Of a stretch of DNA of 64,000 nt, positions 4,562 through 8,192 are shown in pieces. The notes beneath the pieces are model-generated. The model was not told where the DNA came from. It made no database searches and saw nothing but the letters and a program-made list of their open reading frames with translations. How positions within the stretch are numbered: position 1 is the stretch's first letter; the number at the start of each line of letters is the position of its first letter. The stretch lies in assembly GCF_000316685.1 (NCBI RefSeq), contig NC_019680.1:621501-685500 (forward strand), in the 5' to 3' direction. Source of the stretch: Synechococcus sp. PCC 6312 (GTDB lineage: Bacteria; Cyanobacteriota; Cyanobacteriia; Thermosynechococcales; Thermosynechococcaceae). Made by a program: the position numbers and the translations under genes.

Positions 4562-5281
4562 TTAGGTGGCCAGGGCCTGGTTTTGCAAGTCCAGCAATTC
4601 CTTGATGCCAATTTCAGCTAAATCCAACATCTGATTGAGTTGATGACGGCTAAAGCTACCGGATTCGGCCGTGCCTTGGACTTCTAATAATTCGAGATGT
4701 TCAGTCATGACCACGTTAAAATCCACCATTGCGGCTAAGTCTTCGGGATAATTGAGATCCAAACAGGGTTGATTTTCCACCAGGCCCACGGATACGGCCG
4801 CCACTTGATGCTTGATCGGCAACTGGGACAGTTCTCCTTGATTGATCAGCAGCAACAAGGCATCCACTAAGGCCACATACCCGCCCGTAATTGCCGTGGT
4901 TCTGGTTCCCGCATCGGCCTGTAAAACATCGGCATCCACTAAGATGGTTCGCTCCCCCAGGCCCCCCAAATCTAAGGCAGCCCGTAAACTTCGCCCAATC
5001 AAGCGTTGAATTTCTTGAGTCCGGCCCGACAACTTATACAATTCTCGTTCTTGGCGTTGTGGCGTTGCGCTGGGTAGCATCCGATATTCTGCCGTTAACC
5101 AACCCTGGCCAGATCCTTCTAAAAATTTAGGCACCCCCGGTCGGACGGAAACTGTACATAAAACCCTGGTTTGCCCACAACTGGCCAAAACGGAACCAGG
5201 GGTGAATTGAGTAAAATTACGCTGAAAACTGACCGGCCGGAGTTGCTGCCAGTCGCGGCCATCGGGTCGTTGCCAAGTCAT
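4562..5281 (-). CDS. rph: Ribonuclease PH
   Basis: This phosphate-dependent 3'-to-5' exoribonuclease trims tRNA 3' ends and belongs to the PNPase/RNase PH fold. The protein is 239 residues, full length. Family signatures are RPDGR at the N-terminus, [14 protein letters not shown], the TAEYRMLP and [13 protein letters not shown] segments, the phosphate-site region [21 protein letters not shown], and [19 protein letters not shown]. It is monocistronic here, with about 270 bases to groEL and a divergent gap of about 230 bases to the CobA-like gene. Confidence 0.95.
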
Positions 5282-5513: not shown

Positions 5514-6068
5514 ATGGTTTCCCAACTCGTTGAATTACGTCCCTATGCTGATGCCGCTCCTCAGGCCAAGAGTCAGCCCCCTTACTGTGTTGAGGGTCTT
5601 ATCCAGGTCTTTACGGCCAAACATCGGAGTTTCTTTACGGCAGTGATGGCCCAAGCTCTCACCATTGCCGGCCAAGGAACCCCAGTTTTAGTCGTGCAGT
5701 TTCTCAAAGGTGGGATTAATTTGGGAGTTGCGCGGCCGATGACCTTGGGACAGCACCTAGACTGGGTTCGCTGCAATGTTCAGCGGTGTTTGACTCAAAA
5801 TGATCTGAATGAACGTGAGACAACAGCCCTGGCCCAGTTATGGGCGTTTACCAAGGAGTCCATTTGCAAGAGTCAGTACAGCTTGGTGGTCTTGGACGAG
5901 TTGAGCTTGGCGATACATCTAGGTCTGATTCCCGAAGCAGAGGTGATTGATCTGTTGGCCAACCGCCCTCGCCAGATTGACATTATCTTAACCGGCCCAG
6001 CCATGTCTCCCGGCCTGTTGGAACTTGCGGATCAAGTCACAGAACTACGCCGCACCTATCGCACCTGA
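5514..6068 (+). CDS. CobA/CobO-like P-loop-fold protein with a lost Walker A motif
   Basis: From the ATG at 5514 (an upstream TTG at 5472 is less likely) the protein is 184 residues. It keeps the corrinoid adenosyltransferase CobA/CobO/BtuR layout: VLVVQFLKGG, VVLDELSLAIHLGLI, ILTGPAMSPGLLELADQVTEL. Where true CobO enzymes have the GxGKGKT nucleotide loop, this protein reads TAKHRSFFTA, with no Gly-Lys-Thr. That makes ordinary ATP binding and cobalamin adenosylation doubtful. It may be a cyanobacterial paralogue with a regulatory or binding role. No cobalamin genes or riboswitch are adjacent. Family assignment is firm; function is unknown. Confidence 0.75.
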   Translation: MVSQLVELRPYADAAPQAKSQPPYCVEGLIQVFTAKHRSFFTAVMAQALTIAGQGTPVLVVQFLKGGINLGVARPMTLGQHLDWVRCNVQRCLTQNDLNERETTALAQLWAFTKESICKSQYSLVVLDELSLAIHLGLIPEAEVIDLLANRPRQIDIILTGPAMSPGLLELADQVTELRRTYRT

Positions 6069-6417
6069 GTCCTGATCCAGTTCCCCTGGAAAAATCGCGG
6101 CCCAGGCCTGGGATTACCCCATCCCTCCCTAGGAGTGCCTCTCTCTAAGCTAGGATGGGAAGGAAGAGTCTAGTTTACTGGACTTTATTGCTTTTTCGGT
6201 GTCGGAGGAGTGGGTCTAGCCCGCTTTTTTTATGGCCATGAATCTGAGCCGCCAGCCTCGATAGGATTACCCGTGTAAGGCTGCACATGACCAGATCAAC
6301 AGGTGCTTCTTCAATGCCGACTTTCAAGCTTACCGCTGGTTCAGAACCATCTGTGTCATGCCATCGGTCAAGATGACTCATTCGACTCCCCTTGTTTTGA
6401 TTGATGTCCCTGCGTTT
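6069..6417 (+). other. Leader/intergenic region upstream of rimP-nusA
   Basis: This stretch of about 350 bases lies between the CobA-like gene and rimP. It contains one palindrome CCAGGCCTGG at 6102 and a hairpin with a T-run at 6210-6231. A weak in-frame extension of rimP back to 6358 is open but lacks family similarity. The hairpin could terminate the upstream gene or act within the leader of the rimP-nusA operon; the sequence does not decide between these. Confidence 0.5.
6210..6231 (+). terminator. Possible Rho-independent terminator or attenuator
   Basis: A short hairpin, GTGGG paired with CCCGC (one G-T pair) around a five-base loop, is followed directly by seven T residues. The stem is only five pairs, so it is weak. 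It sits about 140 bases after the CobA-like gene and about 190 bases before rimP. Confidence 0.4.
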
Positions 6418-6882
6418 ATGTCTCACCCGTTAATTCCCATTGTTCATGATCTGGCTAAACCTGTGGCGAGCCAACTGGGCCTGGAAGCGGTGGCCGTTTA
6501 CTTTTATACCCATCACTCTCCCCCGACCCTGCGCGTGGATATTCGCCACCCCAACCGGGATATTACCCTGGAAGACTGCACCCAAATGAGCCATTGCTTA
6601 GAAGAGGTTTTGGATGCGAGTGATCACGTGACAACCGCCTATGTTCTGGAAATTTCTAGCCCCGGCCTGTCTAATGATTTAACCACTGACCGAGATTTCA
6701 AGTCGTTTCGGGGGTTTGCGGTTCAGGTCACAGTCCATTCCCCAGACCATGGTCAGCAGGCCTGGGAGGGAACCCTGATTGGGCGGGATGAGGCTGCGGT
6801 TTACCTGAATCAAAAAGGGCGCAAAATTACGATCCCCCGGGATCAGGTGTCTCTGGTGCAGTTACAAGAGGGGCCGAGTTAG
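6418..6882 (+). CDS. rimP: Ribosome maturation factor RimP
   Basis: RimP binds the 30S subunit and helps its late assembly. From the ATG at 6418 the protein is 154 residues, the usual size. Signatures are LGLEAVAVYF, LRVDIRHPNRDITLEDC, and the highly conserved VLEISSPGLSNDL segment followed by DRDFKSFRGF, then an SH3-like C-terminal domain with GRKITIPRDQVSLVQL. The upstream in-frame ATG at 6358 would add 20 residues with no family match. It is the first gene of the conserved rimP-nusA-rnpM operon, 41 bases before nusA. Confidence 0.93.
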   Translation: MSHPLIPIVHDLAKPVASQLGLEAVAVYFYTHHSPPTLRVDIRHPNRDITLEDCTQMSHCLEEVLDASDHVTTAYVLEISSPGLSNDLTTDRDFKSFRGFAVQVTVHSPDHGQQAWEGTLIGRDEAAVYLNQKGRKITIPRDQVSLVQLQEGPS

Positions 6883-6923
6883 CCTCTCTGAGATTGAATT
6901 CAAGTTGTTATGGAGTTGTTGTT

Positions 6924-8192
6924 ATGAGTACCTATCGGTTGCCTGGCCTGCGGGAAATGCTCAATCAAATTAGTCGGGAGCGAAACTTACCCAAAGCCTC
7001 TGTCCAAGAAGCCCTGGAAGAGGCCTTACTCAAAGGTTATGAACGGTTTCGCCGCAGTCAGCGTCTAGACCAAAGCCACTTTGATGAAGAGTACTTTAGT
7101 AATTTCCTCGTCGAACTGGACCCCGATGATGAAGGCTTTCGGGTTCTTTCCACCAAAACCATTGTCGAAAAAGTTGATAATCCCGATCACCAAATTGCCC
7201 TGACCGATGTTCTAGAAGTGGTGGAAGATGCGGAACTGGGCGATAACGTGGTTCTGGATGTCACCCCCGATCAACAGGAATTTGGGCGGATGGCAGCGAT
7301 TCAAACCAAGCAAGTCCTCTCTCAAAAATTGCGGGATCAACAACGTCGCCTTGTCCAAGAAGAGTTTCAGGATTTAGAAGGGACGGTTTTATTGGCCCGA
7401 GCCTTACGATTTGAACGGCGATCTGTAATCATGGCGGTGCGCAGTGATGCCCTCCAACCCGAGGTCGAGGCGGAACTCCCCAAGCGGGAACAACTCCCCA
7501 ATGACAACTATCGAGCCAATGCTACTTTTAAGGTCTATCTGAAGCGGGTTAAGGATGGGCCGCAGCGGGGGCCACAAATGGAAGTTTCCCGAGCCGATGC
7601 TGGCCTAGTGGTCTATCTGTTTGCCAATGAAGTTCCCGAAATTGAGGATGAAATTGTCCGTATCGTGGCCATTGCCCGGGAAGCAAATCCACCAAATCCG
7701 AAAATTGGCCCCCGAACAAAAATTGCTGTTGATACCCTCGAGCGAGACGTAGATCCAGTTGGAGCGTGTATTGGTGCTAGGGGGGCGCGTATCCAGGCCG
7801 TGGTAAATGAACTGCGGGGTGAAAAAATTGATGTGATCCGCTGGTCTCCGGATCCTGGTACCTATATTGCCAACTCCCTCAGCCCGGCGAAAGTTGAGGA
7901 AGTCCGCTTAATCAACCCCACCCAGCGAATTGCCCATGTCCTAGTGGCTCCCGATGTGATTAGTTTGGCCATTGGGCGGGAAGGACAGAATGTGCGTTTA
8001 GCGACCCGATTAACGGGCTGGAAAATCGAAGTCCGGGATGCGACCACCTATGATTACGAGAGTGAAGATCGTAAAGCCGAGTCGGCCTGGGAATCAGAGG
8101 AGCAAGAAGAAGACCTGGAATTAGACGCGGCTGTCGAGGTCAACCGTGAAGCCGAAACCGATTTGCTGCTCCCAGAGGACGCTGAGGAATAG
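6924..8192 (+). CDS. nusA: Transcription termination/antitermination factor NusA
   Basis: NusA binds RNA polymerase and nascent RNA and controls pausing, termination and antitermination. From the ATG at 6924 the protein has 422 residues: the N-terminal polymerase-binding domain (YRLPGLREMLNQIS), the S1 domain, and two KH domains with GACIGARGARIQAVVNEL and IGREGQNVRLATRLTGWKI. The C-terminal acidic repeats of enterobacterial NusA are missing, as is usual in cyanobacteria; instead there is a short Glu/Asp-rich tail. The TTG at 6894 is a less likely start. The stop precedes the rnpM start by 10 bases. Confidence 0.95.
   Translation: MSTYRLPGLREMLNQISRERNLPKASVQEALEEALLKGYERFRRSQRLDQSHFDEEYFSNFLVELDPDDEGFRVLSTKTIVEKVDNPDHQIALTDVLEVVEDAELGDNVVLDVTPDQQEFGRMAAIQTKQVLSQKLRDQQRRLVQEEFQDLEGTVLLARALRFERRSVIMAVRSDALQPEVEAELPKREQLPNDNYRANATFKVYLKRVKDGPQRGPQMEVSRADAGLVVYLFANEVPEIEDEIVRIVAIAREANPPNPKIGPRTKIAVDTLERDVDPVGACIGARGARIQAVVNELRGEKIDVIRWSPDPGTYIANSLSPAKVEEVRLINPTQRIAHVLVAPDVISLAIGREGQNVRLATRLTGWKIEVRDATTYDYESEDRKAESAWESEEQEEDLELDAAVEVNREAETDLLLPEDAEE

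Follow-up and report, generated by a model that had tools for sequence, protein, structure and literature searches.

The gene at positions 5514..6068 (+ strand) of the 64,000 nucleotide stretch of Synechococcus sp. PCC 6312 DNA analysed here (the window) encodes a protein of 184 aa which, by its NF005648 and PF02572 profile scores, belongs to the PRK07414/NF005648 family, a P-loop-less paralogue of CobA. In cyanobacterial genomes this family goes together with the class II ribonucleotide reductase, and it is this context of PRK07414 that is new here; the original prediction had not noticed it, and it tells more about the protein than the altered loop. A pathway link between PRK07414 and the class II reductase is very likely. 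The family is probably a helper of this reductase, and we see about an even chance that it is a CobA-fold protein without catalytic activity that has been retained as an accessory to the cyanobacterial enzyme.

Family assignment, fold and the altered nucleotide loop

The translated frame is uninterrupted from an ATG, and this start agrees with the MV(A/S)QL N-terminus common to many relatives. The protein reaches 101.6 bits against the Pfam profile CobA_CobO_BtuR (PF02572; cut-off 25.7; profile match to CobA/CobO/BtuR with E 2e-24) and 269.5 bits against the NCBIfam equivalog NF005648/PRK07414 "P-loop NTPase family protein" (cut-off 248). With the two profiles for functional adenosyltransferases it stays far under the cut-offs, scoring 83.7 bits for TIGR00708 (cut-off 167.75) and 95.3 bits for NF004637 (cut-off 185). 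The profile of the tandem protein PRK07413, NF005647, gives 61.6 bits (cut-off 426), and with 184 aa the protein does not comprise two domains. The structure nearest to its AF2 model (mean pLDDT 87.6) is Salmonella CobA, 4hut (Foldseek E 1.2e-8), with a VIA Z of 16.5 and an rmsd of 2.9 over 143 residues. The original prediction of a CobA/CobO homologue with the fold kept is thus borne out by the PF02572 score and the modelled likeness to 4hut, and the protein shares superfamily and fold with the CobA/CobO/BtuR adenosyltransferases (PF02572; PDB 4hut, 1g64, 1g5r).

When the protein is aligned together with cyanobacterial CobA and the tandem protein, the sequence TAKHRSFFT (residues 34-42; 5613..5639, + strand) occupies the slot of TGNGKGKTT of CobA. 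This confirms the degenerate nucleotide loop that had been predicted in place of GxGKGKT; the stretch named as retained, VVLDELSLAIHLGLI, is also present as quoted. Neither the Walker A pattern [AG]x4GK[ST] nor GxGKGK[ST] was found in any of 139 distinct sequences (152 rows) of the PRK07414 family, which come from 122 sources (L001 repeating the window) and from the loci of an NF005648 genome scan, the two sets overlapping. GxGKGK[ST] is present in all 31 canonical CobA proteins examined. The tandem proteins have the fold family in common with PRK07414 and differ from it by their two domains with two GxGKGK[ST] loops (30 of 31 examined). The family is therefore already modelled, with the window protein as a member, but judged by its sequences it is misnamed: the name of NF005648 implies a P-loop and states no function, and Walker A is absent from all 139 distinct sequences. 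The database name "P-loop NTPase" would have to be corrected.

Two further motifs, which the original prediction does not name, set the family apart from canonical CobA. GFTWET, the motif that places Phe/Trp on the corrinoid side of the adenosyltransferase, was found in none of the 139 members as compared with 30 of 31 canonical CobA proteins, and the C-terminal KH...GI(E/D)(F/Y) tail in none as compared with 31 of 31. Because the tandem PRK07413 proteins also do without GFTWET (0 of 31), the loss of this motif is little informative on corrinoid binding.

Other parts are kept. Alignment A1 comprises 57 of 66 rows, with L129 among the nine left out. The Walker-B-like LVVLDE (residues 124-129; 5883..5900, + strand) has in these 57 rows an invariant E129 and a D128 conserved in at least 90%. 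W84 and R86 of a W-x-R motif (5763..5771, + strand), both invariant, lie in the alignments near the position of the corrinoid-side loop of CobA. In total 16 columns are invariant: G28, Q31, R38, G55, Q62, G67, G71, W84, R86, W110, E129, T160, G161, A172, T176, and R179. Arg38, which belongs to TAKHRSFFT, is replaced by Gly in L129, outside A1. In a 60-domain tree a single branch separates each of these groups from the rest: the PRK07414 family, CobA, and each half of the tandem protein; the program marked long branches in it. Outside the class of the window many weaker NF005648 matches occur, and all five examined have an intact loop and a CobA-like tail.

The PCC 6312 genome contains four CobA-family matches, namely the window gene, a canonical CobA, and the two halves of one tandem protein. 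The canonical CobA (202 aa, intact loop) scores 270.9 bits for NF004637 and 248 bits for TIGR00708, and its gene adjoins, as judged by eye, an ATP-synthase epsilon-like open reading frame. The tandem double CobA (PRK07413; 377 aa, both loops intact) scores 747.1 bits for NF005647. The original prediction had raised the question of a second, true adenosyltransferase gene, and by sequence these two intact-loop genes are both candidates. Compared with the window protein directly, CobA gives 50.9 bits and the tandem halves 44.0 and 41.2 bits. The tandem protein was considered as the nearer relative and dropped, since its higher profile scores sum two domains.

Within the family the median dN/dS is 0.098 (513 pairs with dS 0.1-1.0; quartiles 0.077 and 0.125; maximum 0.90). 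With the loop lost in all 139 members, local decay of the gene was rejected; the loss is not peculiar to this strain. The proposal that the gene is under selection for another function is accordingly strengthened by the family-wide loss, the low dN/dS, the invariant columns, and the two intact-loop genes in the same genome. From its sequence the PRK07414 protein would be dead as an enzyme.

Co-occurrence with the ribonucleotide reductase classes

The survey covered 291 genomes of the phylum, 141 of them from the class of the window, which we took as cyanobacteria proper because the named relatives are cyanobacteria. A genome was counted as a carrier when it had an NF005648 match at E < 1e-30; the curated cut-off was not used for this and is reached in only 54 of the 291 genomes. 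Within the class the threshold falls into a gap between the weakest carrier (5.2e-37) and the strongest non-carrier (1.1e-21), giving 99 carriers and 42 non-carriers.

All 99 carriers have a class II, adenosylcobalamin-dependent reductase, as against 4 of the 42 non-carriers. In 98 of the carriers and in the four non-carriers this is an RTPR-type NrdJ (E < 1e-50; Fisher 1e-28, uncorrected for kinship). In G290, the one carrier left, the class II enzyme is the dimeric NrdJ_Z (412.7 bits, cut-off 399.95); its gene (L222:1255-4338) probably contains an intein, as seen by eye and from matches below the cut-off. The class I subunit NrdB, searched for in all 141 genomes, shows the opposite distribution, with 2 of 99 carriers (G119 and G161, both also with NrdJ) and 38 of 42 non-carriers. 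PCC 6312 itself follows the pattern: its class II reductase scores 735.5 bits for TIGR02505 and is encoded by an intein-containing nrdJ (L223:3401-7750), and no match to NrdB was found in the genome. Class III reductase was found in none of eight genomes searched.

Four non-carriers lack NrdB (G046, G048, G115, G278). Three of them, G048, G115, and G278, have NrdJ in the absence of both NrdB and PRK07414. The fourth, G046 (f7/g18; 99% completeness, one contig), gave no match to RTPR, PF02867, NrdB, the class III family, or the NrdJ of a congener.

The tandem PRK07413 and CobA were sought in 80 of the 141 genomes, i.e. all 42 non-carriers and 38 carriers. PRK07413 is over the cut-off in 37 of the 38 carriers (the exception being G081), and it is present without PRK07414 in the four non-carriers lacking NrdB; the link to the class II reductase is common to both proteins. 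Synechococcus elongatus, a control genome, gave matches in the searches for PRK07414, NrdJ, and PRK07413. A canonical CobA match was obtained in 75 of the 80 genomes, over the cut-off in 69. Since CobA is so widely retained, B12 synthesis in itself does not account for this distribution. In five genomes, all with NrdB (G050, G052, G077, G087, G205), no CobA-family match was found at E 0.001; these strains are perhaps not B12 makers.

Gene neighbourhood and alternative explanations

Upstream of the window gene lies the divergent RNase PH gene rph (4562..5281, - strand; TIGR01966, 348.7 bits). We compared 40 diverse loci from 19 families and 80 named loci, the latter being the best 80 of at least 516 confirmed relatives from one scan, which lean to Nostocales and their relatives and include one strain twice (L207, L212). 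In 20 of the 40 diverse and 65 of these best 80 named loci, rph lies up to 1500 b upstream on the other strand. Downstream follow rimP (6358..6882, + strand) and nusA (6894..8192, + strand), both identified by NCBIfam scan. The commonest downstream neighbour of PRK07414 elsewhere is dcd, the gene for dCTP deaminase; it does not lie downstream in the window and is located apart, at C1:808263, in the own genome. It was found on the same strand within 600 b downstream in 25 of the 40 diverse loci (11 of 19 families) and in 54 of the best 80 named loci. The 25 diverse loci include 12 of 12 from family f19, whose small genomes appear to be those of marine Synechococcus and Prochlorococcus. Further loci have thyX, dut, or a dCMP-deaminase-like gene near PRK07414, and any one of these or dcd is present in the fetched stretch of 28 diverse and 69 of the best 80 named loci. 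The names of the neighbours were assigned by NCBIfam scan of one representative each (two for thyX), with TIGR02274, TIGR02170, and PRK00601 over the cut-off and the dCMP-deaminase-like gene under the cut-off of its best model.

No NrdJ open reading frame was found around PRK07414 in the 122 sources; the same query detects NrdJ in L223 and L227. A cobalamin riboswitch over the gathering score was likewise not found in 12 sources, comprising 3.5 kb around the window gene (L001), the own nrdJ, tandem, and CobA regions, seven loci of relatives, and the dcd region of G278; the sole match there was psbNH in L112.

We considered four alternatives to an accessory of the class II reductase. First, PRK07414 could act in the dNTP branch (dCTP deaminase, thymidylate synthase) as a regulator or scaffold, binding or sensing a nucleotide at its remodelled loop and having no corrinoid role. 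The operon-like order with dcd, with matched stretches as little as 3 b apart, speaks for this possibility, as do the genes thyX, dut, or the dCMP-deaminase-like gene nearby in several loci. It is nevertheless unlikely. A search with a single Dcd query detected dcd in 28 of 38 carriers, leaving ten with no match, but also in 22 of 42 non-carriers, so that PRK07414 is not simply the companion of Dcd. Moreover, it is PRK07414 and not dcd that tracks the reductase class.

Second, shared ancestry could suffice, the class I lineages having lost several genes together with no functional link among them. Many non-carriers indeed fall into few families (15 of 42 in f6). We examined this possibility on a quick rpoB tree covering 79 of these 80 genomes (all but G125, in which rpoB had no match), which is a midpoint-rooted single-gene tree with non-carriers over-sampled and G046 coded as NrdB-absent. 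The minimum number of changes on this tree is six for NrdB, eight for the PRK07414 family, and seven for the tandem protein. Well-supported branches yield five independent pairs differing in NrdB; in these PRK07414 differs in the opposite direction in three to five pairs and never in the same direction, and tandem PRK07413 in the opposite direction in four or five. The sign test for PRK07414 against NrdB gives a median p of 0.0625, with 0.05 out of reach for five pairs, and the about six switches on the tree leave room for shared ancestry. A dependent two-trait model is strongly favoured over the independent one, both for PRK07414 and NrdB (LR 45.4, p 3e-9) and for the tandem protein and NrdB (LR 44.1, p 6e-9); such tests are lenient when events are few. 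The control dcd shows no link in the same comparison (LR 2.3, p 0.67), and because this commonest neighbour shows none, synteny alone does not make the reductase link. Shared ancestry as the only cause is further opposed by contrasts that recur inside families f4 and f11, by the CobA match kept in 75 of the 80 genomes, and by a cyanophage having reductase and tandem CobO together (see below), and we regard it as quite improbable.

Third, the CobA fold predicted by the model would suit a protein that stores cobamides or carries corrinoids in general and is not specific for the reductase. Against this highly unlikely alternative stand the class I genomes that keep CobA without PRK07414, a CobA match being present in 33 of the 38 NrdB-bearing non-carriers. 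Finally, there is very little chance that the new loop still binds ATP or adenosylates corrinoid: the Walker-B-like LDE with its invariant E129 and the modelled CobA fold are retained, but each of the 139 distinct members lacks Walker A, GFTWET, and the C-terminal tail, and intact-loop genes exist in the same genome.

Proposed role, natural exceptions and mobile relatives

The preferred reading is that of an accessory to the class II reductase, and the supply of cofactor to NrdJ is the simplest common ground, because the sequence points to a dead adenosyltransferase, the distribution to the class II reductase, and the neighbourhood to deoxynucleotides. MetH uses the methyl form of the cofactor, and only NrdJ is known to need the adenosyl form. 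A published study names two B12 enzymes in cyanobacteria, NrdJ and MetH (PMC6370689). We infer that the PRK07414 protein may work on the side of the cofactor, as a partner of PRK07413 or CobA that itself does no catalysis. It would hold, escort, or gate adenosylated corrinoid for NrdJ, or sense the demand for it. This escort or partner role we propose tentatively. It is conceivable, although on balance doubtful, that PRK07414 is the first recognised member of a new type of factor that loads class II reductase with its cofactor or reactivates it, a pseudo-adenosyltransferase which together with PRK07413 would hand adenosyl-pseudocobalamin to NrdJ and match its supply to dNTP synthesis across cyanobacteria, including the small marine-type genomes.

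A comparable arrangement is that of MMAB and MMAA, where an adenosyltransferase also hands AdoCbl to a client enzyme; for PRK07414 this is an analogy only, with a different client. MMAB is a different type of adenosyltransferase from CobA. The escort of AdoCbl by the adenosyltransferase and a G-protein to methylmalonyl-CoA mutase is described in two reports (PMC8633584, PMC10356863). In the open-licence literature we found no report of a loop-less CobA tied to NrdJ and no mention of "PRK07414". To our knowledge it is not settled how class II reductases obtain and renew their adenosylcobalamin. A conserved dead paralogue of a cofactor-making enzyme, kept where the class II reductase is used and often situated beside dcd, would be a concrete candidate for this supply.

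Several observations count against the accessory reading. The three genomes with NrdJ as their reductase (G048, G115, G278) and G197, which has both classes, all lack PRK07414; the carriers G119 and G161 keep NrdB as well; no NrdJ frame lies near the gene in the sources searched; and independent pairs are few. One of these genomes, G278, is a congener of the carrier G245. It has kept dcd (93% DNA identity), rph (88%), and NrdJ, and between dcd and rph an open reading frame of 929 aa (L315:5879-8668) replaces PRK07414 and adk. Since NrdJ is kept, PRK07414 can be lost without loss of NrdJ, and the gene is dispensable in G278. By eye, cysteine-rich ferredoxin-like stretches are seen in the 929-aa frame. 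In G197, NrdB is accompanied by two NrdJ frames, and its tandem CobA match (L228:44-439), located where a contig starts, is a 3' fragment that contains an in-frame stop. This genome was possibly caught in transition, or the assembly is mixed.

The cyanophage P-SS2 has an RTPR class II reductase (L322:854-3424; 646.8 bits, cut-off 340.05) and a CobO of 344 aa (L320:13491-14525), which by its profile score of 395.4 bits, under the cut-off of 426, and its two loops is of the tandem PRK07413 type. In the published description of the phage the gene table also contains dcd and a thymidylate synthase, and the role of cobO, among other genes, is called unclear (PMC2784084). The phage supports the link of the tandem protein to the reductase, not directly that of PRK07414; if the link is true, it would suggest a reason for the presence of a tandem cobO in a cyanophage that has a class II reductase. 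In P-SS2 the window protein matched nothing besides the tandem CobO, which also counts against the accessory reading. Pattern and tblastn searches of viral_contigs gave no viral carrier of PRK07414. The window protein has matches in four phage records, of which three are from P-SS2 (the tandem CobO) and one is unannotated, and the viral contig L323 (7 kb) has a P-SS2-like tandem CobO and no NrdJ frame.

Plasmid matches amount to 127 records. Among the ten listed, nine are cobO of Thermus and one is a PRK07414-like gene of Gloeobacter morelensis on pGMOR1 (L321:3986-4504), which scores 115.8 bits against the NF005648 cut-off of 248. The protein of this plasmid gene is annotated as adenosyltransferase and is loop-less, with HTHPERGFEP at the loop site.
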